A DNA stretch of 49,502 nucleotides from Nonomuraea lactucae (GTDB lineage Bacteria; Actinomycetota; Actinomycetes; Streptosporangiales; Streptosporangiaceae): contig NZ_QNFZ01000010.1 of the NCBI RefSeq assembly GCF_003313395.1, positions 1 through 49,502 of the forward strand, read 5' to 3'. Positions within the stretch are counted from its first letter, which is position 1, and the number at the start of each line of letters is the position of its first letter. Positions 29,690-49,502 of this stretch are shown here, piece after piece. A program made the translations under genes and the position numbers. The notes under the pieces are model-generated. The model was not told the DNA's origin, made no database searches, and saw only the letters and a program-made list of their open reading frames with translations.

Positions 29690-31655
29690 GGGCTGCCCGC
29701 CTCCGGTCGGCCGGGTCATCGCCGGCGTCAGCCGCGGGTACAGATCGCTTTCGCCGCTCTCGACCCGGTACAGCTTGACCTTGTTGATCTGCTTGATGCG
29801 TGGCAGCAGGTCAAAGCCCAGCAGCCGGGTCACGCCGAACCCGATCTCGGTCTGGCCGTGGGAGTCGACATAGTTGCCCTCGACCTTCATGGTGGTGCCG
29901 TGCCAGACCGCGCCCTCGATCATCGCGTGCACTCCGAGGCCGAGGCGCGCAGAGTCTGGGAGCGCACCACCATCGACCCGCGCTCGATGTGCCAGTAGAT
30001 GAGGATGCCGCGACCGCCGTACCGCGAATGCCACTCAGTGAAAATATTCTGATCGTAGGCGCGCACATGCGTGGAGTCGGAGGCGACCGTGGTCGTGCCC
30101 TCGCCCCACAGCTCCACGTCCCGGGCGGTGAAGGTGGCGTTCGCGATGGCGATCGCGATGTCCTGGGCGATCTGCGGGGTCAGGTAGCGGCGCCGCACGT
30201 AGCGGATGTCGTCCTCACTGTGGGCGTGGCCACCGGAGGCCACGGCCCGGATCCCGGTGTTGGTGCCATATCCGAAGATCGTGAGCATCAGCCGCTCGGC
30301 CAGGACCTCGGGCTTGAGGCTGGAGGTGCCCGCCACCGAGGTGACCGCCTTCAGGCAGCCGGTGCGCAGCACCGCCTCCTTCAGCATGTCGATCAGCGGT
30401 ACCGAACCCCAGCGGCGGCTCGGAGATCGCCAACCAGTCCAGCTTCGGCAGCGCGGTATCGAACGCCTCCAGCTCGGCGCGCATCTCGGCCTTCAACTCG
30501 GCGATGAAGTCCTTCGGGTCCAGCGGCTTGCGCAGCTCAGCGTAGTTCTCCACGCGCCGGGCGGCGAAATCCTTGGGCAGGTCCTCCTCCGGGTCACGGA
30601 AGGAATGAGCGCCGACCACCCAGATCTCCTTGCACCGCAGGGCCTCGCGCAGCGCCTGGAAGGTGACGATCTCATACACCATCCGCACCACCCGCCGCCG
30701 CCCGCGCTTGTCCTTCTTGAACACCAGGTCCTCCCACTCACCAGCGGTGCCGCGGTGCTCGGGCACCACCTCGCCGCGCGGGTAGTAGGTGGCGTTGCCC
30801 GCCTTGGCGTAGCGGCGGATCAACTTCAGCGCCTCGATCACCGTCTGGAAGGCGGTGTTGTTGCTCTTGAACTCCAGGGTGTCAAGCAGCGCGATCAGAC
30901 CGCGCCGGTAGTGGTTGGTGTGAGGCGCGCAGCGTGGTCTGCACCGTGGTTCGGTAGGCCGGGCCCTTGGTCTTGAACTCGTGCACCAGATCCCGCAGCG
31001 TCTGCTCGCCGCCGCTGACAGCCGGGAAGATGACCTGGCGGACCGAATCGTCGGGCTGACCGAGCGCGGCGTCGGCGACCTTGAACAGGATGTTCTCCTT
31101 GCCGGTCACCCGCTTGAACGCGTTGATCAGCTCTTTGGTCACCTTGCTGTCGGCCCGCGCCTTGATCCGATGCACCGTGGCAATCAGCAGCTCCACCAGC
31201 GCGTCAGTGATCTCCCGCTCCCGCTCCTGGACCAGCGCCGCCAGCAGCAGCACCGTCAGCTCGCGCGGATGCGTGCGCATGTGGGAGGGCGCTTCCACCG
31301 CCGCCCGTGCCCGCCAAGCGGCCAGCACCTTGGGCGCCACGTCGGCGAACAACCCGGCCGGCAGCTCGATCGAGCGCCCCGCCGCCAGCTTGCGGATCTC
31401 GGTCATCATCGACTCCAGGCTCACGTTGCCCGGCGCGGACTTGATCAACGCCAGGAGGCTGGAGTCGATGTCGTCATCGTCCTCGGCAGGCGCCCCGCCC
31501 ATAGGTTCCTGACGGTCACCGGCCCCCTCGTTCACCGCGCGGCTCGCATCTTCGATGCCGACCAGCGCGTAGATCCGCTGCGTGGTCTCGGGACTCGACC
31601 GGGAGGCGATCCGCTTTCTTACCGGCACCCCGTGTAGCGCTGGGCCGCTCGCCAC
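29690..31655 (-). pseudogene. Tn3-family transposase, truncated at both ends with three frameshifts
   Basis: Minus-strand frames join (breaks near 30915, 30405 and 29945) into the middle and catalytic start of a large Tn3 transposase: LLALIKSAPGNVSLESMMTE, LPAGLFADVAPKVLAAWRAR, ELINAFKRVTGKENILFKVA, VVGAHSFRDPEEDLPKDFAA, EVLAERLMLTIFGYGTNTGI. The first catalytic Asp is in TVASDSTHVRAYDQNI and the second in GNYVDSHGQTEIGFGV. Sequence is lost after RLTPAMTRP, before the third acidic residue. The N-terminal domain is also missing. It belongs to a different subfamily from the transposase at 17207. Decayed remnant. Confidence 0.85.
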
Positions 31656-31712: not shown

Positions 31713-33092
31713 TCAGGACCGGCGGTTGCCGAAGCCGGAGGCGCGCAGGACGCGGTCGCGTGAGGCGCGCACGTCCTCGCGCAGGGCGGCCAGGTCGACG
31801 TCGAGGACGGTGCCGGCCCACTTGCGAATCTGGCCGGCGATGAAGACGGCGTCGATGTTGCCCGCATCGCTGCCGAGGACGAGGGTGCCGATGGGGTCGT
31901 TGAGCGGCATGTTGTTGAGGTCTTCGGCGCGGACGACGAGCAGGTCGGCCTGCTTGCCGGGGGTGAGGGAGCCGGTCACGTCACCCAGGCCGATGCTTTT
32001 GGCGCCCTGCAGGGTGGCGAAGTCGAGCACGTCGTGCACGCCGATCCGGTTGGGCTGATCGCCGGTGCCGTAGGTGGCGTTGACGGCGCGCATGCGCTGG
32101 ATGGCGTGCAGGGCGCGCATCTGCGTGAACATGTCGCTGGCAAGCGCCACTTCGACGTCGATGCTCAGGCCGGGCCGGATGCCGACGGCGAGCGCCTCGT
32201 CGATGGCGGGGATCGCGCTTTCCAGGCCGATCTGCGCATCCGAGGTGGGGGCGAGCGCGACGTTGGCGCCGCTGTCGGCCATCGCCTGCCATGCCTGGGG
32301 GGTCAGGCCGGTGCAGTGGATGAGGGAGACTGCCGGGCCGAGCAGATCCTTCTTGGCCCATCCGAGGATGGCCTCGGATGAGGGATGGCCGAAGACGGCG
32401 TCGATGCTGACTCCGATCCCCAGCTCGCGGGCGGTGTGGGCGAGGCGTTCGCCGTAGGCGAGGTCGGGGCCGGCGATCTCGCCGGTGGCGAGGGTGGCCA
32501 GGCGCAGGGTGAGCAGTCCACCGCTGGAGAAGTAGGTGTCCTGCAAGCGGGTCAGGTCGGCGGGCCATTGGCCGTCCCAGTCGCCGAAGTGCGGGCGCAT
32601 CGAGGCGTGCACGCCGCGGATGCCGGTGTCGGCCAGCGCCCGGATGGCGGCGTCGGAGTGGGCGGCGGTGCGGGAGTTGTGGGAGAAGTCCAGCATGGTG
32701 GTGATGCCGCCGTCGATGGCGGTCAGCGCGGCCAGCCGGGTGCCGATGTACATGTCCTGTGGATGGTAGGCGGGTGCGATGCCGGCCAGGGTGGAGGTGA
32801 CGTACTGGCCGAGGTCGTTGACGTCCGGCATGATGCGGCGCAGTTGCGCCTCCCAGGCGTGGCGGTGGGTGTCGACGAAGCCGGGGGCCAGGACGGCGCC
32901 GGTGACGTCGATGACCAAGGCGTCGCCGGCCTGCAGGTCCGGGCCGACGGCGGCGATCCGGTCGCCTTCGATGAGCAGGTCGGCGCGGGGCAGGACGCCG
33001 AGCGCGGGGTCCATGGTGACGATGGCGGCTCCGGTGAGCAGGATGCGGCGGCCGGAGCTGTGGCGGCGCAGCTCGTCCAGGGTGGCGTTCAT
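31713..33092 (-). CDS. Amidohydrolase (chlorohydrolase/cytosine-deaminase-like)
   Basis: 459 residues from the ATG at 33092 with GAAGGAA upstream. Typical metal-dependent amidohydrolase plan: N-terminal strand domain LLTGAAIVTMDPALGVL, metal motif APGFVDTHRHAWEAQ (HxH), later His in LIHCTGLTPQAW, LAPTSDAQIGLES and a conserved Asp region near GLSIDVEVALASDMFTQM, then the C-terminal strand domain GSLTPGKQADLLVV. The family hydrolyses C-N or C-halogen bonds on ring compounds; the substrate is unknown. It is the last gene of an SDR-SDR-amidohydrolase operon. A decayed copy of this gene lies at 43248-44096. Confidence 0.9.
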   Translation of the reverse strand: MNATLDELRRHSSGRRILLTGAAIVTMDPALGVLPRADLLIEGDRIAAVGPDLQAGDALVIDVTGAVLAPGFVDTHRHAWEAQLRRIMPDVNDLGQYVTSTLAGIAPAYHPQDMYIGTRLAALTAIDGGITTMLDFSHNSRTAAHSDAAIRALADTGIRGVHASMRPHFGDWDGQWPADLTRLQDTYFSSGGLLTLRLATLATGEIAGPDLAYGERLAHTARELGIGVSIDAVFGHPSSEAILGWAKKDLLGPAVSLIHCTGLTPQAWQAMADSGANVALAPTSDAQIGLESAIPAIDEALAVGIRPGLSIDVEVALASDMFTQMRALHAIQRMRAVNATYGTGDQPNRIGVHDVLDFATLQGAKSIGLGDVTGSLTPGKQADLLVVRAEDLNNMPLNDPIGTLVLGSDAGNIDAVFIAGQIRKWAGTVLDVDLAALREDVRASRDRVLRASGFGNRRS

Positions 33093-33242
33093 GGTGTTTC
33101 CTTCAGCGTGGTCGTGGGTGAGGTCTTGCCACTTGGTCATGCGGTGCCGCAGATCCACGGTGGCGGCGTTGGTGGAGAAGGTGCCGAGAATCCGCAAGTC
33201 GGCTGCTCACAGGAGCCCGGCGCAGGGCCAGGTCAGGCCAGG

Positions 33243-34022
33243 TCAGACGACCTGCGCGGTAGGCAGGATGGTGATCTCGGTGAGGTTGACGTGGCGGGGC
33301 GAGGCGGCGATGAACGCCACGGTCTCGGCCACGTCCGCCGACTGCAGCGGGTCGATCTCGGTGAGCAGCCCTTCCATGAGGGCGCTGGCGTCGGGGTCGG
33401 TGACGTGGCTGGGCAGCTCGGTGTCGACCATGCCGGGCTGGATCGTGGCCACGCGGATGTTCTTGGGGCCGAGTTCGACGCGCAACAGCCGGGTGAGGTG
33501 GCTGATGTAGGCCTTGGTGCCTGAGTAGACGGAGAACTTCTCCAGGATCCGGGTCGCCGCGATCGAGGAGGTGGTGATCAGGTCCGCGGGACGGCCCGCC
33601 TCGGCGGCAATGGTCAGGTGTGGCAGGAAGGCGCCGATGACGTTCATGACGCCGGTGATGTTCAGGTCGATCTGGCGCTGCCAATCGTCTTGGCGCAGGT
33701 CGGTGATCGGCGAGATGAGCTGGACGCCGGCGTTGTTGACGACGAGGTCGGCGGTGCCTAGCCGCTCGGCGACCTCGGCCGCCGCGTCACCGACGGCTTC
33801 CCGGCTGGTGACGTCGACGGCGATGGCGATCGCGGTGCCACCGGCGGCGCTGATGGACGCGCTCAGGTCGTCGAGCTTGTCCTTGCGCCGGGCAAGCACG
33901 ACGACGTTCGCGCCGAGTCCAGCCAGGCGCAGGGCGGTGGCGGCGCCGATGCCGCTGGAGGCACCCGAGACCACGGCCACGCGGCCGGCCAGCGGGGTTC
34001 CGATGAGCAGAGCAGCAGTCAT
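33243..34022 (-). CDS. Short-chain dehydrogenase/reductase
   Basis: 259 residues from the ATG at 34022 with AGAGG upstream. Classical SDR: VAVVSGASSGIGAATALRLA (TGxxxGxG with Ser for Thr), VNNAGVQLI, strand-5 TTSSIAATRI and the catalytic YSGTKAYIS (YxxxK), then IRVATIQPGMVDTELPSHV. VVLARRKDK with Arg residues after strand 2 suggests NADP. It is the middle gene of the operon. A short remnant of a paralogue (ATPSVGRVAVVCGASSG) survives at 43038-43132 in the duplicated locus. Confidence 0.9.
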   Translation of the reverse strand: MTAALLIGTPLAGRVAVVSGASSGIGAATALRLAGLGANVVVLARRKDKLDDLSASISAAGGTAIAIAVDVTSREAVGDAAAEVAERLGTADLVVNNAGVQLISPITDLRQDDWQRQIDLNITGVMNVIGAFLPHLTIAAEAGRPADLITTSSIAATRILEKFSVYSGTKAYISHLTRLLRVELGPKNIRVATIQPGMVDTELPSHVTDPDASALMEGLLTEIDPLQSADVAETVAFIAASPRHVNLTEITILPTAQVV

Positions 34023-34101: not shown

Positions 34102-34944
34102 TCAGGCAGTGGCGTCGTCGTGCGCGGTGGCGGCGGATTTCCCCCGCCAGGGGGCCACGTCCTGTTCGATCTGGTCCAGCTTGACCTGCAGCCGGTCCAG
34201 GGTGTCGGTACCCAAGTACAGGTGCCGGGGCAGGGTGTCCTGGGAGGTGACCTCGTAGATCAGCGCGGCGCCCTTGGCCGGGTCGCCGAGCTGGGTGTGG
34301 TTGGCGGTGTCCACCCAGTCGAGGGTCACATGGGCCGGGGTGCCGTCGTAGGCGTCGATGCGGTCGGCGGGCATCGACAGGGAGCTGGCGTCGAGGAAGT
34401 CGGTGCGCAGCACGCCCGGCTCGACCACCATCGACTGGATGCCGAACGGCTCCAGCTCCTTCGACAGCGACTCGCTGATCCCCGCCACGGCGAACTTCGA
34501 GGCGCAGTACATACTCACCCCGGGCTCGCCCTCGAACCCTGACCGCGAGCCGATGTGCACGAGCTTGCCGGAGCCCTGGCGGCGCATGACGGGCAGCACC
34601 GCGCGGGTCATGTCGATGAGACCGAAGACGTTCAGGTCGAACAGCGAGCGCGCCTCGGCGTCGCTGATCTCCTCCAGGGCTCCGAGCAGGCCGCGACCGG
34701 CGTTGTTGACCAGCACGTCGATGCGGCCAAACCGGTCGACGGCGGCCTGGACGGCGGCGGGAATGGCCGCGCTGTCGATGACGTCCAGGGCGACGGTCAG
34801 CACGTTGCCGGCCTTGACGAGGTCTTCCGGCATGCGGGCCGGGTTGCGGACCGCGATGACAACGTTATCGCCCTGGGCGAGGGCGGTGCGGGCGATCTCA
34901 GCACCCAGCCCGCGGGATGCTCCGGTGATGAACCAGGTGGCCAT
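34102..34944 (-). CDS. Short-chain dehydrogenase/reductase
   Basis: 280 residues from the ATG at 34944 (GAGGAC upstream); the frame upstream of it is non-coding. Motifs: MATWFITGASRGLGAEIART (cofactor loop), VNNAGRGLLG, IGSRSGFEGEPGVSMYCASK (catalytic Ser and YxxxK), VVEPGVLRTDF. The C-terminal extension of about 60 residues (TLPRHLYLGTDTLDRLQVKL) is typical of SDRs of this group. It is first in the operon; the 25-bp element at 35024-35048 lies 80 bases upstream. A decayed copy of its 5' end, with the same element, lies at 41101-41276. Confidence 0.9.
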   Translation of the reverse strand: MATWFITGASRGLGAEIARTALAQGDNVVIAVRNPARMPEDLVKAGNVLTVALDVIDSAAIPAAVQAAVDRFGRIDVLVNNAGRGLLGALEEISDAEARSLFDLNVFGLIDMTRAVLPVMRRQGSGKLVHIGSRSGFEGEPGVSMYCASKFAVAGISESLSKELEPFGIQSMVVEPGVLRTDFLDASSLSMPADRIDAYDGTPAHVTLDWVDTANHTQLGDPAKGAALIYEVTSQDTLPRHLYLGTDTLDRLQVKLDQIEQDVAPWRGKSAATAHDDATA

Positions 34945-35169: not shown

Positions 35170-36006
35170 CTACCGCGCCTTCGACAGCGCGTCGTCGGCC
35201 CGCTCGCGCAGCCGTTCGAACGCCCGCGCGGTTGGCGTGGCCGGCTCGGCCTGATAGACGACGAGCTGCTGGTGCGGTGCGCCGTTGACGGTGAACGCCG
35301 AGAACAGGATGTGCAGGTCGCCCACGTGCGGATGGCGCAGGTGCTTGCCCTCCTGCGTCTTGGGTTTGACGTCATGGCGGCCCCACAGCTCGGCGAACTC
35401 GGGACTGGCGGCCGACAGGTCCGCCACGACCTCGGCGATGCGCCGATTGCCGGGGTCGTGGCCGTAGGCGGCCCGGATCTCCGCCATGCAGGAGTGCGCC
35501 GCCCGCTCCCACTCCTGGTAGAACCCCCGCCCGGCCGGGTCCGCGAACACCATGCGGGCCAGGTTGTCGGGCGGGCTGAAGCCCTCGTGCAGCGCGGCGG
35601 CCATGGGGTTGCAGGCCAGGATGTCCAGCGCGGGCCCGAGGGCGAAGGCGGGCGAGGTGGACCAGCCGTCCATGAGTTGCAGCAGCTGAGGGCTGACCGT
35701 GGTGTCCTGTGCCTGCTGCCACATCCGCGCTTCCGGCGGCTGCACCAGCCGCCACAGATGCTCGGCGGCGGGCGCGTCCAGGCGCAGCGCCCGGGCGACC
35801 GCCTCGACCACCTGGGGCGACGGGCTGGACTCGCGGCCCTGCTCCAGCCGTACGTAGTAGTCGCTGCTCATGCCGGCCAGCATCGCCACCTCTTCACGGC
35901 GCAGGCCCTTGACCCGGCGGCGGCCGTACTCGGACAGGCCGACGTCCTGCGGCTTGAGGGCTTCGCGGCGGGCGCGCAGGAAGTCGCCCAGCGGGGTGCC
36001 GGTCAT
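35170..36006 (-). CDS. XRE-family regulator with MmyB-like ligand domain
   Basis: 278 residues from the ATG at 36006. An N-terminal helix-turn-helix (GLRREEVAMLAGMSSDYYVR, LEQGRESSPSPQVVEAVARA) is followed by the MmyB-type domain: ALDILACNPMAAALHEGF, NLARMVFADPAGRGFYQEWE and HLRHPHVGDLHILFSAFTVN. In actinobacteria such regulators commonly sit beside SDR genes, and the domain is thought to bind a fatty-acid-like ligand. It is upstream of the SDR-SDR-amidohydrolase operon on the same strand and is the best candidate to bind the 25-bp element; that is inference. An upstream TTG at 36096 would add a (SSSHAG)x3 leader. Confidence 0.9.
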   Translation of the reverse strand: MTGTPLGDFLRARREALKPQDVGLSEYGRRRVKGLRREEVAMLAGMSSDYYVRLEQGRESSPSPQVVEAVARALRLDAPAAEHLWRLVQPPEARMWQQAQDTTVSPQLLQLMDGWSTSPAFALGPALDILACNPMAAALHEGFSPPDNLARMVFADPAGRGFYQEWERAAHSCMAEIRAAYGHDPGNRRIAEVVADLSAASPEFAELWGRHDVKPKTQEGKHLRHPHVGDLHILFSAFTVNGAPHQQLVVYQAEPATPTARAFERLRERADDALSKAR

Positions 36007-36414: not shown

Positions 36415-36649
36415 CCGCAATCGCACACCCCGCCCAGGCGAGCAGTACCTCAAACCGATCCGCCAGCTCATCGAATCGGTCAACGACACCCTCAAAGGCC
36501 AACTCGATCTCGAACTCCACGGCGGACGTACCCCAGAAGGGGTCGGCGCCCGCATCGCCCAGCGCATCTTGGCGTTGACCGCCGCGATCTGGCACAACCG
36601 CCTCACCGGCCAGCCCGTCACCCGCTCATTGACCGCCTACGACCACTGA
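36415..36649 (+). pseudogene. IS transposase C-terminal fragment (IS5/IS982-like)
   Basis: The plus frame reads RNRTPRPGEQYLKPIRQLIE, SVNDTLKGQLDLELHGGRTP and LALTAAIWHNRLTGQPVTRS-LTAYDH, then TGA. This is the end of a DDE transposase of the IS5/IS982 kind, including the Glu-containing IESVNDT helix of the catalytic triad. The frame is open from 36341, but nothing before 36400 matches. CGGCGTTAGGACTTACTC just after the stop may be part of the IS right end. Confidence 0.7.
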
Positions 36650-36670
36650 CCGGCGTTAGGACTTACTCGT

Positions 36671-37127
36671 CTAGCCGTCGGAGGACGCACCATACAGTGC
36701 ATTGGCAACGTCGCGGGTCTCGTCAGCCCAGGGCACAGGCCGACGTGACTGCGGGTCCACGTTGACCTCGGTGCGGCTGCCCTCGGCGTGGACCGTCCGC
36801 CCATCCTCGGAAACCACGCGGAAGGCGAAGACCATGCTGCTCTTGCCGAGGTGCTCCAGCCGGGAACACACGTTGACCATGCCGACTCCGCGGATCGGGC
36901 TGCGATACCTGATCACCTGCTCAAGCACGGCATGCAGGACATCCGGATGCGTCGGCACACCGTCGGCGATCGAGTACCCAGCCCGCGCCCAGATCCGCAC
37001 CAGCGCCCGTTCAACCAGCATCGGATACCGGCCGCTGTGCAGATTGCCCATGAAATCGAGGTCGTCCAGGTGGACTTCGGCCTGCTCGATGCGCTCCGCA
37101 CCGAGCACCTTGGCAGTGTCAACCATT
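36671..37127 (-). CDS. Acyl-CoA thioesterase (hotdog fold, 4HBT-like)
   Basis: 151 residues from the ATG at 37127, which has GAAGGG upstream; the frame continues to 37222 without a better start. Hotdog features: VHLDDLDFMGNLHSGRYPML (the D-x-x-G-x-x-x-x-x-x-Y helix start), VIRYRSPIRGVGMVNVCSRL, SSMVFAFRVVSEDGRTVHAE and RTEVNVDPQSRRPVPW. Members of the family hydrolyse acyl-CoA or acyl-carrier-protein thioesters. It is isolated: IS debris on one side, a methyltransferase 250 bases upstream on the same strand. Substrate unknown. Confidence 0.82.
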
Positions 37128-38249: not shown

Positions 38250-38326
38250 CCTGGCTATCCCCAATGTCCGATGGTGAACGGCCGATCGCTGCCCAGCGAC
38301 GATCGCCGTCATCACCGTATTACAGG

Positions 38327-38355
38327 TGTCAAAAATAATCAACGCATGTCAAAAA
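38327..38355. promoter_or_regulatory. Direct repeat TGTCAAAAA between methyltransferase and TetR
   Basis: TGTCAAAAA occurs at 38327-38335 and 38347-38355, 20 bp apart (two helical turns), in an AT-rich patch upstream of both divergent genes. Likely promoter/operator. Confidence 0.55.
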
Positions 38356-38391
38356 GCTGTGGGTATTATCCTTCCTGGGGACGGAGGGTTC

Positions 38392-39069: not shown

Positions 39070-39123
39070 CTTGGTGAGCCGGGGGGATCGGTTGGTCAAG
39101 GCCTGGTCCCTCCGGCTGGTTCG

Positions 39124-39798
39124 GTGCTGCAGCACTACGGCCCGGATCACTACGAAATGGTGCTGGCGTGGTCCCGAGCAGTGGAGCTGCGCCACCAGGC
39201 CCGCCGCCGGACCGCCGCCGCGGAGATGCGCAGCGTGCTCCAGGACGTGTTGCGCCTGGCAGAGGACGGACGGACCGAATTCTTGTGCAGGAACGGCCGG
39301 GCGTCGGGCCGCTTCAGTGGCCTGGCGCTGCAGCCGTCTGGACGGTGCGTACGATGGTTGGCTGGCGGACTTTCGAGGAGCGCCCAGTTGGCAAGTCGCA
39401 CACTGGAGGCGCTGCGCGCTACGGCCGGGGCCGACGCAGGACCTGAGCTCGCCGTCGCAGTGACCGGCATGCCGGTCGACCGGCTGGACGAGCCGGCGGC
39501 GGTGTGTACCGGAATGCGGCCGGACCGGCCAGCCTGAACCTCAACGCCGCGCTCAACCCGCGGTTCGCCGGCACCGGCCACTTTTCCGCCGGGCCCTGCG
39601 AGCGTTGCTGTACTGCCACGGACTCGTCATCGAGGACCCGATCGCCGTGGCCGCCGAGATGTATCCAAGATGCGGGCGGCGTGGTCGGCGGTCTGGTGGC
39701 GGCGCTGTGGGCCAGTTCGGCGATGCGGGCTCCCATCCGGTCGATGAGGCGCGACCCGGGCCGCCTCGTCGACCGGATGGTCGCCCGGGTGGAGGGGG
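39124..39798 (+). pseudogene. Coding-like debris, family not recognised
   Basis: Two stretches look like former genes. VLQHYGPDHYEMVLAWSRAV followed by LRHQARRRTAAAEMRSVLQD lies in the frame from 39124. ALLYCHGLVIEDPIAVAAEM lies near 39600 in another frame. Each loses its coding look after 40-60 residues. No start with a good ribosome site. Probably remnants of one or two hypothetical proteins. Confidence 0.3.
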
Positions 39799-40251
39799 TC
39801 AGCCGGCCTTGGCGGCGGACTCGGACTCGGAGTCCTTGATCCCGAGGTTGGCGTAGGCGACCGGGTTGGCGTACTCCCATACCTTGACGATCTTCCCGTT
39901 GGCGATGTCGACTTTGAAGATGTAGACGTTGCGGTACACCAGCTTCTCGGCGGTCGACAGGATGTCGCCGTTGGCCTGCAGGAAGACCGAAGAGCCGTCC
40001 TCGCTGACGGTGTAGACCTTGTCCAGGAACGCCACCCGGTCGAACTTGGCGGCGACCGAGTGGATGTAGCCCATCACGTGCTCGCGGCCGTCGAAGACAT
40101 ACCAAGGCTCGGGCGTGCCCTCGATCGACAGCGGGATGGTGATGTTGGCCTCCGGCGCCAGCACGGCCTCCACGCCGGCCGGGTCGCGGCCCTCGAACGC
40201 GGCGAAGAACGCCTGGGCCAGGGACAGGGCATCCTGATGAACGGTGTTCAT
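39799..40251 (-). CDS. SnoaL/NTF2-like family protein
   Basis: 150 residues from the ATG at 40251, with AAAGAGAAAG upstream. Small cone-shaped NTF2-like fold: DALSLAQAFFAAFEGRDPAG, VEAVLAPEANITIPLSIEGT, YVFDGREHVMGYIHSVAAKF and VYRNVYIFKVDIANGKIVKV. Members include ketosteroid isomerase, SnoaL cyclases and many small-ligand binders. The VWEYANPVAYANLGI ending is typical of the SnoaL-like group. It stands alone in debris. Catalysis cannot be inferred because the conserved acidic residues of the cyclases are not evident. Confidence 0.85.
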   Translation of the reverse strand: MNTVHQDALSLAQAFFAAFEGRDPAGVEAVLAPEANITIPLSIEGTPEPWYVFDGREHVMGYIHSVAAKFDRVAFLDKVYTVSEDGSSVFLQANGDILSTAEKLVYRNVYIFKVDIANGKIVKVWEYANPVAYANLGIKDSESESAAKAG

Positions 40252-40972
40252 GATCTTTCTCTTTCCGGTTGAAGTGAGCCGGTCCGGAATGGGTGTTCGT
40301 CCCGGCGGCGATGCTTACGCTAGGCCGCTCTCGCCTGGTCTCCCTCGCCCCGGCATCCCTGGGACCGCCAGTCCCACGCTGCGCCCCTCCACTCGACGCG
40401 AACACTGGTGGAATCGTCAATACCTCTGGGTCAAGATCCTTAGGCGGGCCGCCTTACCCCTTGCCGTCCAGCCGCTGTTCTCGGAAGTGCTGACGAGCGC
40501 TCCGGTTCTCGTTCTCGGAAGTCGTCGCGGCGGACGTTTCTGAGAACACGGCCTCCTCGGAAGCTGCTGGCCTGCGATGCTGCTATGCGATGCTGGCCCG
40601 CAGCGGGAAGTTTCGGCCGGATATGACCAGCGCCGGTGACACCCTCCGTGACACGTTGGGTGCCTGCCGTCGCGGAATTGATCATCGTGGTGGTAGCAGC
40701 GCGCACACCTATGCGCTCACCCGCGTGGGCGCGCGTGGGAGGCCGGCCGGTCAGGGCCTGGGGCGGGGGCCGGCGATGCGGGCGGCGAGGAGGTGCTTCA
40801 GGCGGGTCACGGGCCTTCGATCAGCGCGCCAGCCATGGTGAAGGTTTGCCGAAAGGCTTTCAGCGAGGCGTTGCGTATCGACGACAAGCAGGCGATCGAG
40901 GCCTTTGACACTGCGATGACCACATGGCGATGGCGGCGCGGTGGGGAGCGCGGCCACCAACGCGACGCTCCA
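40252..40972. other. 720-base gap without a convincing gene
   Basis: The part next to 40251 is the leader of the SnoaL-like gene, with TTGACGATTCC on the minus strand at about 40415 as a weak promoter candidate. The rest has short coding-like bits, for example KVCRKAFSEALRIDDKQAIE-AFDTA near 40840-40915 on the plus strand, which I do not recognise. It leads into the conserved 25-bp element. Confidence 0.4.
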
Positions 40973-40997
40973 TTCCTAGGTACAGCTCTCCCAGGAA
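40973..40997 (+). promoter_or_regulatory. Conserved 25-bp element, copy 2
   Basis: Reads TTCCTAGG, TACAG, CTCTC, CCAGGAA; one base differs from the element at 35024-35048. It lies 104 bases upstream of the SDR remnant whose intact paralogue follows copy 1. It is conserved better than the gene it precedes. Confidence 0.8.
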
Positions 40998-41100
40998 ACT
41001 CACGGCCTTCTCCCCCTTTGGCCGCCTGGACAGACTCGAATCTGTCAGCGGCAGGACATATCGCGGCTGAACCGGCAAGACAAGCGGAAAGGACGCCCTC

Positions 41101-41276
41101 ATGGCCGCCTGGTTCACCGGCGCATCCCGCTGCCTGGGCGTCGAGATCGGCCGCACCGCCCTGGGCGAGGGCGACAACGTCGTGGTCGCGATACGCAACC
41201 CCGACCGCCTTACGAGGACCTGAAGAAGGCCGACAACGCGCTGGCGGTCGCCTTGGACGTCACCGACACTGCCTGA
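41101..41276 (+). pseudogene. SDR 5' remnant, paralogue of the gene at 34102-34944
   Basis: The ATG at 41101 (GAAAGGA upstream) opens MAAWFTGASRCLGVEIGRTA then LGEGDNVVVAIRNPDRL. After a frameshift near 41210 it continues YEDLKKADNALAVALDVTDT and a stop. The intact paralogue starts MATWFITGASRGLGAEIART and has GDNVVIAVRNPARMPEDLVK. About 220 C-terminal residues are gone; the next SDR gene starts 26 bases later. Confidence 0.85.
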
Positions 41277-41301
41277 CCCCGCAGCCACCGAAGGATCAAT
41301 C

Positions 41302-42141
41302 GTGTTTCACACCTCAACCGTCTGGCTCATAACCGGCTGCTCCACAGGTTTCGGCCGCTCCCTGGCCGAACACCTGCTCGACCAGGGCCACCGCGTGGTG
41401 GCCACCGCACGCGACACCGAGCAGATCAAGGACCTGCGCGAGCGAGGGGAAGCTCTCCTGCTGCCTCTCGACGTCAGCGACCCGGCCAGCGTCTCTGAGG
41501 CGGTGCGACAGGCCGAGGAGCAGTTCGGCGGCATCCACGTGCTGGTCAACAATGCCGGGATCGGTTACTTCGCCGCCGTCGAAGAGAGCGAGGAAGCCGC
41601 CATCGACCGGCTGTTCGACGTCAACTTTCATGGCGTCTCCCGCACGATTCGGGCCGTCCTTCCCGGGATGCGCGCGCGCAGGAAGGGCTTCATCGTCAAC
41701 CTGACCTCGATCGGAGGGCTGGTGGGCCACACCGCGGTGGGCTACTACTGCGCCACCAAGTTCGCCGTCGAGGGCCTGACCGAGAGCCTGCGGCACGAGG
41801 TGGAACCTTTGGGCATCAAGGTGATGCTGGTCGAGCCGAGCGCGTTCCGCACCGAATGGGCCGGCTCCGCTCGGGGGTCCGAAGCGACCATCGCCGACTA
41901 CGACGCCACGGCCGGTGCCGCTCGCCGCGCCTACCAGGCATCGGTGGGGCGCCAATCCGGCGATCCCGACCGTGCCGCGCGAGCGCTGGTGGCCGCGGTG
42001 GAGTCTCCCGAGCCGCCGCTGCACCTACTGCTCGGCAACGATGCCCACGACACCGCCATGGCCAAACTCGCCACCCTGCGGGCGGAGTTCGAGAAGTGGG
42101 AGTCCACCAGCCGCGGGGCCGACTTCCCGGCCGGCTCCTGA
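41302..42141 (+). CDS. Short-chain dehydrogenase/reductase
   Basis: 279 residues from a GTG at 41302 with GAAGGA upstream. Classical SDR of the oxidoreductase type with a C-terminal extension: VWLITGCSTGFGRSLAEHLL (cofactor loop), VVATARDTEQ, LVNNAGIGYFAAV, LTSIGGLVGHTAVGYYCATK (catalytic Ser and YxxxK), VEPSAFRTEWAGSA. It sits just after the decayed SDR stub and has no close counterpart in the left locus, so it was added to the duplicated operon or replaced part of it. It probably shares the transcript with the next SDR. Confidence 0.9.
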   Translation: MFHTSTVWLITGCSTGFGRSLAEHLLDQGHRVVATARDTEQIKDLRERGEALLLPLDVSDPASVSEAVRQAEEQFGGIHVLVNNAGIGYFAAVEESEEAAIDRLFDVNFHGVSRTIRAVLPGMRARRKGFIVNLTSIGGLVGHTAVGYYCATKFAVEGLTESLRHEVEPLGIKVMLVEPSAFRTEWAGSARGSEATIADYDATAGAARRAYQASVGRQSGDPDRAARALVAAVESPEPPLHLLLGNDAHDTAMAKLATLRAEFEKWESTSRGADFPAGS

Positions 42142-42179
42142 CCGTCGAAGACACCACTATGAACTGATTGGAGCAGATC

Positions 42180-42947
42180 GTGAACCGCTTCACCGAAAAG
42201 GTGGCCGTCATCACCGGCGGAGGGTCGGGAATCGGCGCGGCAACCGCGCGCCGATTCCTCGACGAAGGAGCCAGCGTCGTCATCTCCGGTCGTCGGAAAG
42301 AGCGCCTGGAGCACGTCGCGCAGAGCACGCCGCAAGATCGCGTGCTCGTCTTCCCGGCGGACGTGTCCGTCCGCGAGGAGTGCGACGCCCTGATCGCGGC
42401 GGCCGTCGACCGGTTTGGCCGGATCGACACGCTGGTCAACGCGGCCGGCATGAACCTCGTCGGCAGCGTCGAGGAAACCTCGGACGAGGACTGGCACACG
42501 TGCGTGGGCGCCGACCTCAGCAGCGTCTTCTACACCACCCGGGCCTCGCTCCCCCACCTGCGCGCCACCAAGGGCTCCATCGTCAACGTCGGCTCGGTGT
42601 CGTCCCTTGGCGGCGGCTGGTCTCACGCCGGATACAACGCCGTCAAAGCGGCCGTCGCCAATCTCACCCGCTCCGTCGCCTGCGACGTGGGCAAGGACGG
42701 TGTGCGCGCCAACGTGGTATGCCCCGGCCTGACCATCACCGAGATGGTCGACGAGATCATGGCGGATGAGGCCCTGCTGGACAAGGCATGGGAGCGCATC
42801 CCCTTGCGACGCGCCGCCCAGGCCGATGAGGTCGCCTCCGCCATCGCCTTCCTCGCCAGCGACGAGGCCGCCATCATCACCGGCATTGCCCTGCCTGTCG
42901 ACGGTGGTCAGACCTGCACCGACGGCGGCCCCGAATGGGGCAAGTGA
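42180..42947 (+). CDS. Short-chain dehydrogenase/reductase (FabG-like)
   Basis: 255 residues from a GTG at 42180 with TTGGAG upstream; a TTG at 42168 is less likely. Motifs: VAVITGGGSGIGAATARRFL, ADVSVREECDAL, LVNAAGMNLVG (NAAG), NVGSVSSLGGGWSHAGYNAV (catalytic Ser; the YNAVK active site follows) and ANVVCPGLTITEMVDEIM. The end ITGIALPVDGGQTCTDGG is the standard FabG-type C-terminus. It follows the previous SDR by 38 bases. No counterpart in the left locus. Confidence 0.92.
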   Translation: MNRFTEKVAVITGGGSGIGAATARRFLDEGASVVISGRRKERLEHVAQSTPQDRVLVFPADVSVREECDALIAAAVDRFGRIDTLVNAAGMNLVGSVEETSDEDWHTCVGADLSSVFYTTRASLPHLRATKGSIVNVGSVSSLGGGWSHAGYNAVKAAVANLTRSVACDVGKDGVRANVVCPGLTITEMVDEIMADEALLDKAWERIPLRRAAQADEVASAIAFLASDEAAIITGIALPVDGGQTCTDGGPEWGK

Positions 42948-43037
42948 GGCCGCAGACCCGCACCACCGCGGCCGGTCCGGCCCTCGCCACGCGGCCTCCG
43001 CCAACATCGCCATCGCCAAAACCCGGCTTCTCACACT

Positions 43038-43132
43038 CAACGATCATCACTGCTGCTCTGCTCACCGCAACCCCGTCCGTCGGCCGCGTTGCCGTCGTCT
43101 GCGGCGCCTCCAGCGGCCTGACCCACGACTGA
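43038..43132 (+). pseudogene. SDR N-terminal remnant, paralogue of the gene at 33243-34022
   Basis: The plus strand reads ITAALLTATPSVGRVAVVCG then ASSGLTHD and a stop. The intact paralogue starts MTAALLIGTPLAGRVAVVSG-ASSGIGAATA. Only the first 25 or so residues survive. It lies between the FabG-like SDR and the amidohydrolase remnant, the expected place for the middle gene of the duplicated operon. Confidence 0.75.
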
Positions 43133-43137
43133 CACCG

Positions 43138-43173
43138 GTGGGATGCCGCCGGGCGGGCCCGGCGGCATCCCAC
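43138..43173 (+). terminator. Strong 16-bp hairpin
   Basis: A perfect stem, GTGGGATGCCGCCGGG at 43138-43153 and its complement at 43158-43173, with a four-base loop. It starts five bases after the SDR remnant stop. It probably ends the transcript of the two intact SDR genes. Confidence 0.85.
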
Positions 43174-43247
43174 GCCAGCCTGTCTCCCCCACCCCGGCTC
43201 GCCCCCCGGCCGAGCCGTCACTATCCCCGCTTCCGCAGGAGCCCACC

Positions 43248-44096
43248 ATGAACGTCCTTCTGGACGGACTGCGCCGCCACGCCATCGACCCCGCCCGCCG
43301 GGTCATGCTCACCGAGGCGACCGTCGTCACCATGGACCCCCGCCTCGGTGTCCTGGTCGCCGGCTTCGTCGACACCCACCGCCATGCCTGGGAGGCCCAG
43401 CCACGCCGGATCATGCCCGACGTCGACGACCTCGGCGAGCACGTGACCATGCGGCCGCACTTCGGCGACTGGGACGACCAGTGGCCCGCCGACCTGACCC
43501 GGCTCCACAACACCTACTACTCCGCCGGTGACCAGTTCCTCACCCTGCGCCGCTACCCATTGCCGAGATCGCCGGCCCGAACCCCGCCTGCGGCGAACGC
43601 CTCGCCCGTGAGCTGGGCATCGGGGTGAGCATCGATGTCGTCTTCGGCCTGCCCTCCTCCGAGGCCATCGTCGCCTGGGCAAAGCAGGACCTGCTCGGCC
43701 CGGGCGTCACGTTCCACTGCACCGGCCTGACCCCGCAGGCGCGGCAGGCGATGGCCGACGCCGCGGTCTCCCTCGCCCCTACCTCCGATGCGCGGATCGG
43801 ACTGCGAGAAACCCGCCCGCATCGGCGTGGCCGCCGCGCTCGACTTCGCCACTCTGCAAGGTGCCGAGAGCATCGGCCTCGGCGACGTCACCGGTTCCAT
43901 CACGCCGAGCAAGCAGGCCGACCTGCTCGTCGTACGTGTCGAGGACCTGAACGACATGCCGCTCAACGACCCGATCGGCACCCTGATCCTCGGCTCCGAT
44001 CCTCGCAACATCGACCCGTCTTCATCGCCTGCCAAAAGGACGTACGCGCCTCACGCGACCGCGTCCTGCGCGACGCGCACCGCGAGGACCCGTCAT
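43248..44096 (+). pseudogene. Amidohydrolase remnant, paralogue of the gene at 31713-33092
   Basis: It opens at the ATG at 43248 (MNVLLDGLRRHAIDPARRVM; the paralogue has MNATLDELRRHSSGRRILLT). VTMDPRLGVL is followed directly by VAGFVDTHRHAWEAQPRRIM, so about 30 residues are deleted. A larger deletion before MRPHFGDWDDQWPADLTRLH removes about 85 more. Frameshifts near 43550 and 43800 and a third deletion follow, but SEAIVAWAKQDLLGPG, FHCTGLTPQARQAMAD, DFATLQGAESIGLGDVTGSI and DVRASRDRVLRD are still readable. It ends in ATGA, overlapping the next SDR start. Not functional. Confidence 0.9.
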
Positions 44097-44895
44097 GACC
44101 AAGTCCGCCTCCGGCCACAGCGTTGTCCTGACCGGCGCGACCAGCGGGATCGGTCTGGCGACTGCCCGTCTGCTCACCCGCTCGGCCACCCATCTCATCC
44201 TGCACGGCCCCGAGCTGCGCTCCGCCGTCGAGCCCCTGCTGTCCACGCTGCCCGGCGAGGCCAGGATCGACTACCTGCACGCCGACTTCGACGAACTGAT
44301 TCAGGTCGCCGCGCTCGCCACCCGAGTCGGCGAGCTGACCGGGCGCGTGGACGTTCTGATCAACAACGCGGGCCGACCCGGACCGCCCACGCGCACGCTC
44401 AGCCGCGACGGCTACGAAACGACGCTCCAGGTCAACTACCTGGCCGCGGTGCTGCTGACCCAGCGCCTCACCCCGCTACTCCGGGACGGCCGCGTGGTGC
44501 ACGTCGCCTCGGCCACCCACCTGTCGGCCACCCTGAACGTGGACGACCTGCACCTGGAACGCCACCCCTACAGCCCAACCATCGCCTACGCCCGCTCCAA
44601 GCTCGCCATGGTGACGCACGCCCTGTGGCAGGCCCGCCACCCCGGACCGCCGACCGTCAGCATCAGCCCCGGCGTCATCAGCACCGGACTGCTGCACGCC
44701 ATGTACGGCGTCGGCGGCGCCCCCACCGCCCACGGGGCACGCAACGTCGTCCAAGCTGCGACCGCGCCTGGCCTGCCCACAGGCACATACCTGGACGACG
44801 GCGAGCCCGCCACGCCAAGCCGCTTGGCCCGCGACCACGCCGCCCAGGAGTCCTTGCACCAGGCCACCACGGACCTGCTCAAGCCATGGCGATGA
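44093..44895 (+). CDS. Short-chain dehydrogenase/reductase
   Basis: About 266 residues; the ATG lies at 44095, overlapping the amidohydrolase remnant's stop, with GAGGA upstream. Motifs: HSVVLTGATSGIGLATARLL, LINNAGRPGPPTRTLSRDGY, VNYLAAVLLTQRLTPLL, VHVASATHLSATLNVDDLHL and AYARSKLAMVTHALW (YxxxK). The HLSATLNVDDL type with a downstream YARSKLA resembles retinol-dehydrogenase-like SDRs. The C-terminus PGLPTGTYLDDGEPATPSRL is also typical. It was probably translated with the amidohydrolase in the duplicated operon. The left locus has no such gene. Confidence 0.88.
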
Positions 44896-45139
44896 AGGCT
44901 GCGACGGGAAACAAAGGCCGGACGGCTGGTCATGATCACTCCGCCGGCGCCGTCCAAATCGTCGGCGGCGTCCCGCCCGTCTCGGTCGGGTGCAGAACGG
45001 CCTGCGCACACGGCGCTCTCGCCTGGCCACTCAACGGCCATATGGTCTAACTTCACCTACTCGGCGGCCGGCCCGGACGGTGGTCTACGTCTGGTCAGAG
45101 CCCGGCTGGAGGAAACCGGCGGCGGACCGCGCCCGCCAT

Positions 45140-45361
45140 GCCAGCCGTCCCGACCTGCACAGTCCCGCTCTCGACTGGGATCCCGTCATTGCTCCCGGCG
45201 GCATGGCCTTCTACCGCGGCGACGCCTTCCCGCGATGGCGCGGATCACTCGTGAACGCCGGCTTGGTGTCCGAAGCCCCGATCCGCGTCGTGATCGGCTC
45301 CGACGGCACAGTCTGGTACGTCGAAGACGACGACCCTGGCCGCCTGTCACTCATCCGATAA
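45140..45361 (+). pseudogene. PQQ-dependent sugar dehydrogenase, C-terminal fragment
   Basis: The plus frame reads RPDLHSPALDWDPVIAPGGM, AFYRGDAFPRWRGSLVNAGL and VVIGSDGTVWYVEDDDPGRL-SLIR, then a stop. These are the last blades of soluble glucose/sorbosone dehydrogenases. The usual segment between LVNAGL and the RVVIGSDG strand is shortened, so there is an internal deletion as well. The frame is open from 44990, but its beginning does not match. No start; orphan remnant. Confidence 0.65.
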
Positions 45362-45396
45362 CCCCTACAGGCCGGAGATCACCGCGGAGGTGTGGA

Positions 45397-46980
45397 ATGA
45401 GTCATCGCAGCCTGGAGATCGTGGTCGTCGTGGTGGCGGCCGTACTGGTCATGACCTGGACGGCCAGACGGCTTAGGCTCAGCGAGCCGATGGTGCTGTT
45501 GGCAGGCGGATGTCTGATCGGCCTGGTGCCGCACTTCGGCGACATCCCCTTGCCCCCCGAAGTGGTGCTGCTCATCTTCCTGCCGGCGTTGCTGTATTAC
45601 GAGTCGCTGACCACATCACTCCGCGAGATCAGAGCCAACCTGCGCTCCATCACGTTGCAGGCCACCGGACTGGTGATGCTCACCACGGCAGCGGTGGCGG
45701 CCGTGGCCCACGCATTCGGATTCCCCTGGCCCGTGGCGTTCGTGCTCGGTGCCGTGCTTGGCCCCACCGACGCGGTGGCGGTGGCCGCGGTCGCGCGCGG
45801 TCTGCCGCGCCGGACGCTCACGATGCTGCGCGCCGAATCACTCATCAACGACGGCACAGCGCTGGTGCTGCTCGCCGTGACGATCGAGGCGGCCGTTCAG
45901 GGCACTCCGTTCTCCTGGAGCGGCACCGCACTCCATTTCGCCGTCTCCTGTGCCGGCGGCATCGCGGTGGGCCTGGCCACGGCCGCGGTCGTGATCCTCA
46001 TCCGGCGCCGCTGGCGAGACCCGATGCTCAACAGCGGCTTGAGCGTGCTCACCCCGTTCGCCGCCTTCATGCCCGCTGAACTGTTGCACGCCTCCGGCGT
46101 CCTGGCGGTCGTCACCTGCGGGCTCGCCTTGAGCCAGGCAGGGCCCCGGCTCATCCCGCCGGTCGCTCGCCTGCAGGTGGTCTCCTTCTGGGAGGTGACC
46201 ACCTTCCTGGTGAACGGGTCGCTGTTCGTCCTCGTCGGTATCCAACTGCCCGCTGCGGTACGTGGTTTGTCGTCGTTCACCGTGCCGCAGGCCGCTCTGC
46301 TCGCCCTGGCGGTGAGCGCCATGGTCATCAGCATCCGACTGCTGTGGTTCTACACCGTGCCCTACCTCGTACGGCTCCTCGACCGACGGCCCCGTCAGCG
46401 CGAACGCCGGATCGGCGCCCGGCACCGCCTGCCGCTCGCTTGGGCTGGCATGCGCGGCGCCATCTCCCTGGCCGCAGCGCTGTCAGTGCCTACGATGACC
46501 GCCGGCGGACTGCCTGTACAGGACCGCGACGCCATCGTGTTCATCACCACCGTGGTCATCCTGGTCACCCTGGTCATCCTCAGCCCGCCGCTGCCTGCCG
46601 TCATCCGGTGGGCGCGCCTGCCCGCCGACCCGACCCAGGACGAAGAAGAGCGCCTGGCCCTGCGCCAGATCTCCCGCGCGGCTGTGAGGGCGCTGCCCGA
46701 ACACGCCGCCCGCCTCAACGTGCCAGCTCACATCGCCGACGAGCTTGCCCGAGACCTTGGCGTCTTCAGCCACCCGAGCAGGGCGCAAGAGGTCGAGCAC
46801 ACCCGGCAACTGGCCTTGGCTCTGCTCCAGGTCAAACGCGCCACGCTGATCCACCTCCGCGACCGGCGGCACATTGACGACATCGTGCTACGCCGCCTGC
46901 AAGCGCGCCTGGACGCCGAACAACTCCGCCTCGAAACCCTCGCCGCCGACGCCGCACCTGCTCGACCGTCGTTATCTTGA
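45397..46980 (+). CDS. Na+/H+ antiporter, CPA1 (NhaP/YjcE) family
   Basis: 527 residues from the ATG at 45397 with GGAGG upstream. About 12 membrane segments fill the first 410 residues. Core motifs: LLIFLPALLYYESLTTSLRE, VLGAVLGPTDAVAVAAVARG (ion-binding PTD region), LRAESLINDGTALVLLAVTI (conserved ND) and LAWAGMRGAISLAAALSVP, with the conserved Arg. A cytoplasmic tail of about 110 residues is helical and charged (RLALRQISRAAVRALPEH, LALALLQVKRATLIHLRDRR). It should exchange Na+ or K+ for protons at the cell membrane. No obvious partner genes. Confidence 0.93.
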   Translation: MSHRSLEIVVVVVAAVLVMTWTARRLRLSEPMVLLAGGCLIGLVPHFGDIPLPPEVVLLIFLPALLYYESLTTSLREIRANLRSITLQATGLVMLTTAAVAAVAHAFGFPWPVAFVLGAVLGPTDAVAVAAVARGLPRRTLTMLRAESLINDGTALVLLAVTIEAAVQGTPFSWSGTALHFAVSCAGGIAVGLATAAVVILIRRRWRDPMLNSGLSVLTPFAAFMPAELLHASGVLAVVTCGLALSQAGPRLIPPVARLQVVSFWEVTTFLVNGSLFVLVGIQLPAAVRGLSSFTVPQAALLALAVSAMVISIRLLWFYTVPYLVRLLDRRPRQRERRIGARHRLPLAWAGMRGAISLAAALSVPTMTAGGLPVQDRDAIVFITTVVILVTLVILSPPLPAVIRWARLPADPTQDEEERLALRQISRAAVRALPEHAARLNVPAHIADELARDLGVFSHPSRAQEVEHTRQLALALLQVKRATLIHLRDRRHIDDIVLRRLQARLDAEQLRLETLAADAAPARPSLS

Positions 46981-48030: not shown

Positions 48031-48849
48031 TCAGGTGGCCAGCGTGCCCAGCAGGGCCAGTGCTTGGGCGGAGAGGGAGTCCGGCTCGGCCGGGTGGGCG
48101 ATGAGCCGCAGGCCGGGCGCGCTGGCGATAAGGAAGATCTCGGTGCGCAAATGCAGATCGCCGACGTCGGGGTGGTAAAAGTGGGTGCCGGACGCGAGTC
48201 CGCCGCGCGGGTCGCGGGCCGCCCACAACCGGCGGAAGTCGTGGCTGATGATCGCCAGTTCGCCGACGAGTTCGCGCAGATTGTGCTCGTCCGGTGCCTG
48301 GCGAGTCGCTTGGCGCAGATCGTGTACGGCCGCCCGGGCGGTGCTGGTCCAGTCGCGGAAGAACTCCCGCCCTGCCGGGTCAAGGAAGATCATGCGCAGC
48401 AGGTTGTCGCCGAAGACGAAGCGGCTGTGCAGCATGGTCGCCAGCGGGTTACGTACCAGCACGTCGCAGGACCTGCCCACGATAAGGGCCGGGGCCACCG
48501 TCCAGTCGTGGAGCAGGGCCAGCACCTCGGGCGCGACCCGCTCGACGCGGCCGGGCCGGCGGCGCCCAGCGGTGGGCCGGGCCAGCCGATACAGCTCCAC
48601 AAGGGCCTGCTCATCCAGGTGCAGCGCCCGGGCCAGGCTTTCCACGGTCTGGCGGGTGGGGCGCTCGCGGCCCTGTTCGAGCCGGGTGTAGTAGCCGACG
48701 CTGAGGCCGGCCAGGTGGGCGACCTCGTCGCGCCGCAGCCCGGCCACCTGTCGGTGGCCGCCTACGGGCAGCCCCGCCTGCTCGGGGCGCACGAGCGCGC
48801 GGCGCTCACGCAGGAACCGCCCCAGCGCGGCGTTGCGCTCACTGTCCAT
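48031..48849 (-). CDS. XRE-family regulator with MmyB-like ligand domain
   Basis: 272 residues from the ATG at 48849; with TAGCCT about 10 bases ahead and no ribosome site, it may be leaderless. The helix-turn-helix ([40 protein letters not shown]) is followed by the MmyB-type domain ([58 protein letters not shown]). It is a paralogue of the XRE protein at 35170-36006 at the family level, not a recent copy. Usual neighbours (SDR genes) are not adjacent here. Its target is unknown; the 25-bp elements are possible but distant. Confidence 0.9.
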
Positions 48850-48929
48850 GACATCTGAGGCTAGGCAAATGGCCGGCACGCTGCCTGGGTGCGTCACTCC
48901 CAGGTTGAACGGCCGGAGCCTCCGGCGGA

Positions 48930-49502
48930 TCACATGCCGAGGTCGAGGTCACGCAGCTGGCGGCGGGAGCTGATGCCGAGTTTGCGGGTAGAAGCTGTGC
49001 AGGTGGCTGTCGATCGTGCGCGGGCTCAGGAAGAGTTCGGCGGCCACCTCTCGAGAGTTCCTGCCGGTGGCCGCAAGGCGGGCGATGTGGTTCCTGGGAG
49101 GTCAGGGCATCCAGGACCGAGGTGGCGGAGCTGGACGGCCGGTCCTCCAGCTCGCGCAGGCCCCGGGCGGCGCGGGTGGCGAAGGCGGTGGCTCCCATGC
49201 CGTCGAACATGCGGTGGAAGCCTCGCGCAGGCTCGCGCGCGCCCGCGGCCGTGAGCCGGAGCGGATGAGCCACTCGGCGTGCAGCAGGCGTGTACGGGCC
49301 AGCTGGACGGCGACCCGGGTGTCGCCGAGGTGGTAGACGGCCTCCTCGTACAGCTCTTCGGGAGCGTAACTGAGCAGGGCGTGGCAGCGGGCCGGCACGC
49401 CGAGCCCCCAGCAGGTGCGGGCGGCGGCCTCGATGAGCTCCGGCAGCGCGGCGGCGCTCCAGAACAGGCGGCTGCGCCCGGCGGCCTGCCCGGGCGGGCG
49501 CG
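48930..49502 (-). pseudogene. LuxR-family (LAL-type) regulator, C-terminal part, frameshifted
   Basis: It enters from the right edge of the window. The tetratricopeptide-like helical region (LLSYAPEELYEEAVYHLGDT, RVAVQLARTRLLHAEWLIRS) leads to AFHRMFDGMGATAFATRAAR and GLRELEDRPS. The LuxR DNA-binding domain is split: VLDALTSQE, then after a break near 49097 HIARLAATGRNSREVAAELF with LSPRTIDSHLHSFY, then after a break near 48995 RKLGISSRRQLRDLDLGM and the stop at 48930. This is the plan of large ATP-binding LuxR (LAL) regulators. Two shifts in the DNA-binding domain should inactivate it. Confidence 0.75.

Follow-up and report, generated by a model that had tools for sequence, protein, structure and literature searches.

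MmyB-like genes located beside genes of the short-chain dehydrogenase/reductase (SDR) family are already known, and MmyB/MltR-type regulators with adjacent SDR genes are among the systems described in PMC3406030. The locus analyzed here lies on a 49,502-base contig (the window) of the draft genome of Nonomuraea lactucae (8.67 Mb in 1068 contigs, designated G000) and resembles those systems in that an MmyB-like regulator, here with a PF17765 ligand-binding domain, is encoded next to SDR genes. As far as the systems are outlined in that source, the present locus differs from them in that the regulator is arranged in tandem with its operon rather than divergently, an amidohydrolase (AH) gene is added, and a candidate regulatory site is confined to two units.

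The window holds the gene order SDR1, SDR2, AH twice, intact on the minus strand (copy 1) and as remnants on the plus strand (copy 2). Those parts of copy 2 that are duplicated by copy 1, namely the regulator, SDR1, SDR2 and AH, are absent or broken, and three SDR genes of copy 2 that are unmatched in copy 1 (S41302, S42180 and S44095) are intact. We consider it reasonably likely that two diverged versions of one MmyB-controlled operon met in this genome and that the redundant genes of copy 2 then decayed. Xenologous displacement and mosaic operons are recognized concepts, and what the locus shares with them is that a genome harbors two homologous operons that differ in ancestry and one of them is losing genes. 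The difference is that the loss proceeds gene by gene in a separate unit, where the matched genes died and the unmatched ones stayed under a kept operator. A literature search, carried out mostly at the level of listings, met no published description of this locus.

Decay and ancestry of the second copy

Comparison of the copy 2 and copy 1 regions (blastn, 40400-45500 vs 31000-36500) revealed collinear opposite-strand matches for SDR1, SDR2 and AH, with identities of 75-97% by block and a best E value of 2e-92. The SDR1 remnant matched copy 1 at 149/190 nt (78%), the SDR2 remnant at 62/74 nt (84%) and the AH remnant in five blocks of 75-97% nt identity. A repeat search of the window recovered the same inverted pairs, and chance is excluded as the source of this homology. 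The original prediction of plus-strand remnants of all three genes in the order of the intact operon, with three intact SDR genes among and behind them, was thus borne out (Table 1). Homology between the copies runs upstream into the leader and operator (40973-41049 vs 34972-35048), an extension that the prediction had not noted. The SDR1 remnant retains the 5' part of the gene, and its last 12 nt are identical to the end of intact SDR1; since the 5' part and apparently also the natural 3' end are present, the remnant looks like a complete gene from whose interior a single large piece was deleted. Gapped alignment by itself did not place this 3' end. The prediction had also called the genes at 41302 and 42180 unrelated, which needs correction for S41302: this gene and intact SDR1 are of one SDR class, with a blastn match of 236/350 nt, and PRK06180.1 (NCBIfam) is the best match of both, above the cut-off for S41302 only.

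The remnants proved to be damaged, as predicted, SDR1 by the large internal and by small deletions and AH by frame-breaking deletions together with a lost codon-position bias. At sites invariant in five functional relatives, changes specific to the AH remnant affected 20/216, 23/239 and 19/170 sites at codon positions 1, 2 and 3, compared to 0.4-4.8% specific changes at positions 1 and 2 in functional AH genes. Outside loci and genomes carry L and G labels here (L018, Sphaerisporangium, G159; L020, Kribbella; L023, A. alba; L125, G117). Gapped alignment of the AH remnant to the outside operon L096 exhibited 13 deletions, seven of them not multiples of three, and no insertions, while alignment to copy 1 gave 15 deletions and three small insertions, so that the 13-to-0 count depends on the reference. 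Because its changes are flat over codon positions and its deletions break the frame, the AH remnant drifts as dead DNA. The changed sites in the SDR1 (16/136) and SDR2 (7/57) remnants are too few for a firm codon-position test. Microhomology at the deletion junctions was mostly 0-1 nt, with 5-8 nt at one 9-nt deletion. Deletion-biased decay and flat substitution are shared with ordinary bacterial pseudogenes formed after redundancy; the difference is that decay here is selective within one operon. No frame-breaking deletion was found in the 2409 nt of the intact SDR genes, for which the chance is about 5e-6 at the rate of the AH remnant (7 per 1380 nt), a figure that assumes equal exposure time and the AH alignment to L096.

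The ancestry of copy 2 was analyzed with approximately unbiased (AU) tests on single-gene trees and on a concatenated tree (21 sequences, 1090 columns), for which 20 operons including copy 1 were picked by hand from more than 100 loci; a later SDR1 tree adds two genomes of the same genus, G010 and G019, for this gene only. According to the original prediction copy 2 arose by duplication of the intact operon, which would require an inverted duplication within the genome, later decay, and new SDR genes inserted behind the old promoter. The same gene order, the same operator and the inverted placement about 6 kb apart are in line with this, as is the lack of a close S42180 relative in the sampled order. 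However, copies 1 and 2 as sisters were rejected on the concatenate (p=0.0028) and on AH alone (p=0.033), and were borderline on SDR1 alone (p=0.053), then rejected with the two added genomes (p=0.022). A recent in-genome duplicate fails on the same concatenate value. Grouping copy 2 with copy 1, L097, L019 and L125 was rejected as well, on AH (p=0.0009) and on SDR1 (p=0.0125). Some outside operons were also nearer to the remnants than copy 1 is, the outcome that the prediction itself had named as fatal to the duplication model: the AH remnant matched L096 at 711/840 and copy 1 at 677/831, the SDR1 remnant matched G010 at 146/182, L018 at 145/182 and copy 1 at 141/182, and the SDR2 remnant matched L097 at 60/68 and copy 1 at 55/66. 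Together with relatives of S41302 and S44095 at the same places in other operons (see below), this makes a duplication very improbable.

Copy 1 falls with L097, L019, L016 and L017, and copy 2 on the side of L096, L159 and L018, a split supported at 100 on the concatenate and AH, at 90 on SDR1 and at 74-81 on SDR1 with the two additional genomes. In these trees the copies are of separate ancestry; like a xenologous pair, they fall with different outside lineages, and they are best read as xenologues or long-separated paralogues of one operon. Transposase debris on both sides of copy 1 is what was seen of a possible transfer, and an old paralogous pair would also be possible.

Copy 2 could itself be a mosaic, in which an L096-like 3' part (AH and exchanger) recombined with a 5' part of different descent and accessory SDR genes were gained before decay set in. 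The best match of the AH remnant to L096 would fit this, as would the leader plus SDR1, which among nine genomes matched L018 best (79% over 299 nt, 239 bits vs 168 for L096), the proximity of SDR1 alone to G010 and the intermediate leader of L096. Yet no significant conflict between trees was observed, since copy 2 with L096 was allowed on SDR1 (p=0.18, or 0.22 with the added genomes) and copy 2 with L018, L020 and L023 was allowed on AH (p=0.07), and we regard a mosaic as unlikely.

Table 1. Features of the two copies and their surroundings in the window
Feature	Coordinates	Strand	Evidence or remarks
Copy 1 AH, intact amidohydrolase, PRK08204 subfamily	31713..33092	-	Pfam PF01979; NCBIfam NF006056, 415.7 bits vs cut-off 391; start placed at ATG; searches queried 31713-33086
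Flav scrap, 24 residues near C-terminus, between copy 1 SDR2 and AH	33114..33185	-	Matches aa 152-175 of the 176 aa of L125 Flav at 83% identity (tblastn)
Copy 1 SDR2, intact	33243..34022	-	PF00106; 92-94% aa to L096, L097, L019; searches queried 33243-34013
Copy 1 SDR1, intact	34102..34944	-	PF00106; 89-92% aa to L096, L097, L019; searches queried 34102-34950
Candidate operator of copy 1, TTCCTAGGTA-n6-TCCCAGGAA	35024..35048	-	One of two exact genome sites
MmyB-like regulator upstream of copy 1	35170..36006	-	PF17765 MLTR_LBD and HTH_31
Candidate operator of copy 2, exact	40973..40997	+	Genome site search
Second inverted repeat in copy 2 leader, GGACAGACTcgaaTCTGTCAGCGGC	41028..41052	+	Leader comparison
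SDR1 remnant, apparent large internal deletion and small deletions	41101..41276	+	blastn, repeat pairs
S41302, intact SDR, 279 aa open	41302..42141	+	Relative in same position in G117/L125
S42180, intact SDR, 259 aa open (255 aa from GTG at 42180)	42180..42947	+	NCBIfam meso-2,3-butanediol dehydrogenase model, 315.5 bits vs cut-off 270
SDR2 remnant, recognizable part	about 43045..43117	+	blastn, gapped alignment
AH remnant	43244..44083	+	blastn, gapped alignment
S44095, intact SDR, 266 aa open	44095..44895	+	Kribbella L020 has a relative (71% aa) immediately behind AH
Na+/H+ exchanger (named NhaP here)	45397..46980	+	PF00999
MmyB48, second MmyB-like regulator	48031..48933	-	Locus comparison
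Broken Tn3-family transposase, adjoining copy 1 on its 3' side	29707..31454	-	Profile and sequence matches
IS982-like stretch	36448..36681	+	No Pfam match; resembles plasmid DNA; IS982 transposase annotated in 2 of 8 listed records (43 matched)

A candidate operator ahead of both copies

A 25-nt inverted-repeat site occurs exactly twice in the draft genome, once ahead of each copy. Even at up to three mismatches only these two sites were found, and a control with the site read backward gave one genome site. An origin by chance was rejected, as 100 shuffles of the window yielded no exact site compared to the two real ones. Each of six relatives picked for bearing the operon carries one exact operator, and Sphaerisporangium G159 carries two, the second of which is located in the space separating MmyB48 from a gene of opposite orientation that presumably encodes a protein resembling an isochorismatase-type hydrolase. 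With at most one mismatch allowed, the site was matched in 11 of 254 genomes from the order sample, a count that includes G000. All 12 aligned SDR1 leaders contain TTCCTAGGTA-n6-TCCyAGGAA, and the exact operator was present in 13 of 103 scanned loci (window and two duplicate loci included); it was not found in more distant loci from Lentzea, Streptomyces and some Nonomuraea (L026, L099). A further repeat of the copy 2 leader, GACAGACT...CTGTCAGCGGC, is common to Sphaerisporangium L018, Kribbella L020 and A. alba L023 and is missing from copy 1. Sorting the leaders into two clean types, A and B, was tried and is broken by the intermediates L096 and G010.

The exact operator ahead of copy 2 supports the part of the original prediction that envisaged a kept promoter region. 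Copy 1 has its own MmyB-like regulator upstream, whereas copy 2 has none, and no decayed MmyB scrap was detected upstream of it (40252-40972). In G031 and G043 a one-mismatch site precedes MmyB paralogues by about 90 nt, which suggests that a regulator of the MmyB type binds the candidate operator. Because the same operator is found on both units and nowhere else in the draft genome, the copy 1 regulator probably drives both, and since both units carry it, the surviving SDR genes of copy 2 are probably co-expressed with the core enzymes.

Intact SDR genes and genomic neighborhood

Relatives of two of the intact SDR genes were found at the same places in other operons. The Kribbella relative of S44095 (71% aa) begins 66 nt past the AH match, and in N. 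basaltis a C-terminal scrap of S44095 follows AH (54%, E 6e-7). S41302 has a relative of 77% aa identity between SDR1 and SDR2 in G117 (L125), which belongs to another genus. Since their relatives hold the same places, S41302 and S44095 are plausibly old members of a longer operon; wholly new inserts are unlikely given this gene order, and the earlier proposal that old genes were replaced by new SDR genes is not supported for either. The G117 locus (L125:7006-10203) encodes whole SDR1, SDR2 and Flav proteins together with the frameshifted S41302 relative and an AH without its C-terminal part, a pattern of decay partly opposite to that of copy 2.

The proposal stays possible for S42180, which may be an insert. 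Relatives were found in none of 249 other genomes of the family (1e-70), in none of 277 other genomes of the order sample (E<=1e-60) and in one (51%) of 395 other genomes of the phylum sample (1e-70). There is overlap between these samples, and scoring in each genome was limited to 6-10 first-look candidates, which leaves the absence less than firm. Ten candidates per genome were scored in the searches for S41302, S44095 and SDR2, and 30 in the genus search for AH.

The dN/dS ratio was 0.23 for S41302 (vs L125), 0.30 for S44095 (vs L020), 0.22 for the exchanger and 0.38-0.55 in more distant pairs, although over such long branches these values are no proof of present selection. The GC content at third codon positions was 0.86-0.90 in the three intact SDR genes, 0.92-0.94 in the copy 1 genes and 0.85 in the exchanger.

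The exchanger behind copy 2 also adjoins the operon in L096 (84% nt) and L125 (80% nt). As in L096, the exchanger is followed by MmyB48, which lies near the operon in many relatives with varying place and orientation. Exchanger relatives (55-63% aa) also occur in AH loci of several Streptomyces (L029, L052, L053, L058-L060, L062 and L086), a hint that the association of exchanger with AH is older. Copy 1 is located between the broken Tn3 transposase and a stretch like plasmid DNA annotated as IS982. When its neighbors (1-31700 and 36200-40950) were compared with the flanks of L096, L097 and L019 (up to 10 kb per side), no match exceeded 70 bits, and of the 11 loci in all only L017 matched the copy 1 neighborhood, at 9450-9935. 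The debris on both sides and the unmatched outer neighborhood weakly favor copy 1 as the newcomer. The reverse order, with copy 1 resident and copy 2 arriving with a core that was redundant from the start and only its accessory SDR genes useful, would agree with the kept cognate regulator of copy 1 and with the 86-94% aa identity of its genes to the operons of L096, L097 and L019. We consider it doubtful, as the exchanger follows copy 2 in the manner of L096 and L125 and it is copy 1 that lies amid transposase debris with unmatched neighbors.

The Tn3 transposase domain itself is split, with profile positions 2-225 (in two frames) on the right and 222-388 on the left in opposite orientation (19467-20231, plus strand; 29675-30387, minus strand). 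Either the region was probably rearranged, perhaps by an inversion, with a breakpoint in a Tn3 transposase, or these are two different Tn3 relics; direct comparison of the Tn3 edges gave no clear common sequence. An open reading frame stretch with a PhdYeFM antitoxin domain was noted at 47532-47870.

Gene loss and joint control

Copy 1 has been pruned as well, since Flav, a putative flavin-reductase-like gene, is reduced to a 24-residue scrap where L125 has the whole gene between SDR2 and AH. A search of the draft genome with Flav gave this scrap as the only trace (one match, E 2.8e-6), and near-full-length matches were observed in L125, L016, L021, L024, L026, L099, L158 and L159. Another decayed operon is found in G058 (L162:9573-10416), where SDR1 residues 1-118 run directly into SDR2 residues 94-256, with the frame shifted by one base according to the tblastn coordinates. 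The operator and SDR1 survive in G010 and G019 (L183, L184), together with no more than a scrap of SDR2 or with SDR1 as the sole gene, and the operon seems to erode often. The AH belongs to PRK08204, a subfamily of hypothetical proteins, and a PDB search with it returned only distant relatives (best 1.7e-18) among deaminases and triazine hydrolases.

In the proposed encounter of two diverged versions, copy 2 would be the longer one, comprising SDR1, S41302, probably S42180, SDR2, AH and S44095 beside the Na+/H+ exchanger, and copy 1 the shorter one (MmyB-SDR1-SDR2-AH), which may have arrived later. With copy 1 supplying the regulator, SDR1, SDR2 and AH, these parts of copy 2 would have been free to decay by deletion and substitution, while the three SDR genes without a counterpart would have stayed open; redundancy is the simplest cause of this selective decay. 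The enzymes of one presumed pathway would now be made from two units under a common operator and the copy 1 regulator. That the locus forms a natural split operon, in which core enzymes come from one copy and three accessory SDRs from the other, tied by operator and regulator only, is put forward tentatively.

Several observations weigh against this account. Once G010 and G019 are added, grouping SDR1 of copy 2 with the copy-1-like sequences, G019 now among them, is allowed (p=0.075 vs 0.0125 before). The placement of copy 2 varies, with L018, L159 and L096 all allowed on the concatenate (p 0.19-0.39) and G010 allowed on SDR1 (p=0.455). The copy 2 lineage may be at home in Nonomuraea, because the leader of G010 is largely copy-2-like, its SDR1 is the closest to the remnant and the grouping is allowed. 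The leader is no clean mark of lineage, as that of L096 is intermediate and that of the same-genus G010 largely resembles copy 2, and its conservation beyond neutral drift is only suggestive (p=0.07 for the boxes, with one change among 42 columns, and p=0.14 for the operator by itself).

Further reservations concern the accessory genes. The S41302 relative holds its position in one of 26 SDR1-SDR2 pairs, the only pair with a long enough gap, and is frameshifted there. S44095 or a scrap of it follows AH in three of 85 AH loci with room downstream, and the A. alba scrap among the matches after AH is weak (N-terminal, 24 residues, E 0.004) and covers a motif general to SDRs. Both counts leave out L001-L015, the duplicates L098, L156 and L157, L101-L155 except L125, and L163-L165 and later loci. 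Being rare at these positions among the loci counted, S41302 and S44095 could be gains, and S42180 is without a placed relative in the family, order and phylum samples. As to context, MmyB48 is opposed to the operon here and on its strand in L096, no exchanger was seen in L097 and L019 within the flank stretches compared, the flanking debris on which the arrival order rests may be unrelated to it, and the genome is in a draft state.

Taken together, the locus is a well-supported instance of an evolutionary process that is already known; its regularity is unusual and its candidate operator useful. The pruning of redundant genes at this locus is instructive, not unprecedented. Intact genes among remnants need not be insertions, since the remnants may be what changed. 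The candidate operator offers a testable site for MmyB-like regulators linked to SDR genes, and the locus would provide a compact natural case in which redundancy, gene by gene within an operon, predicts which genes die.

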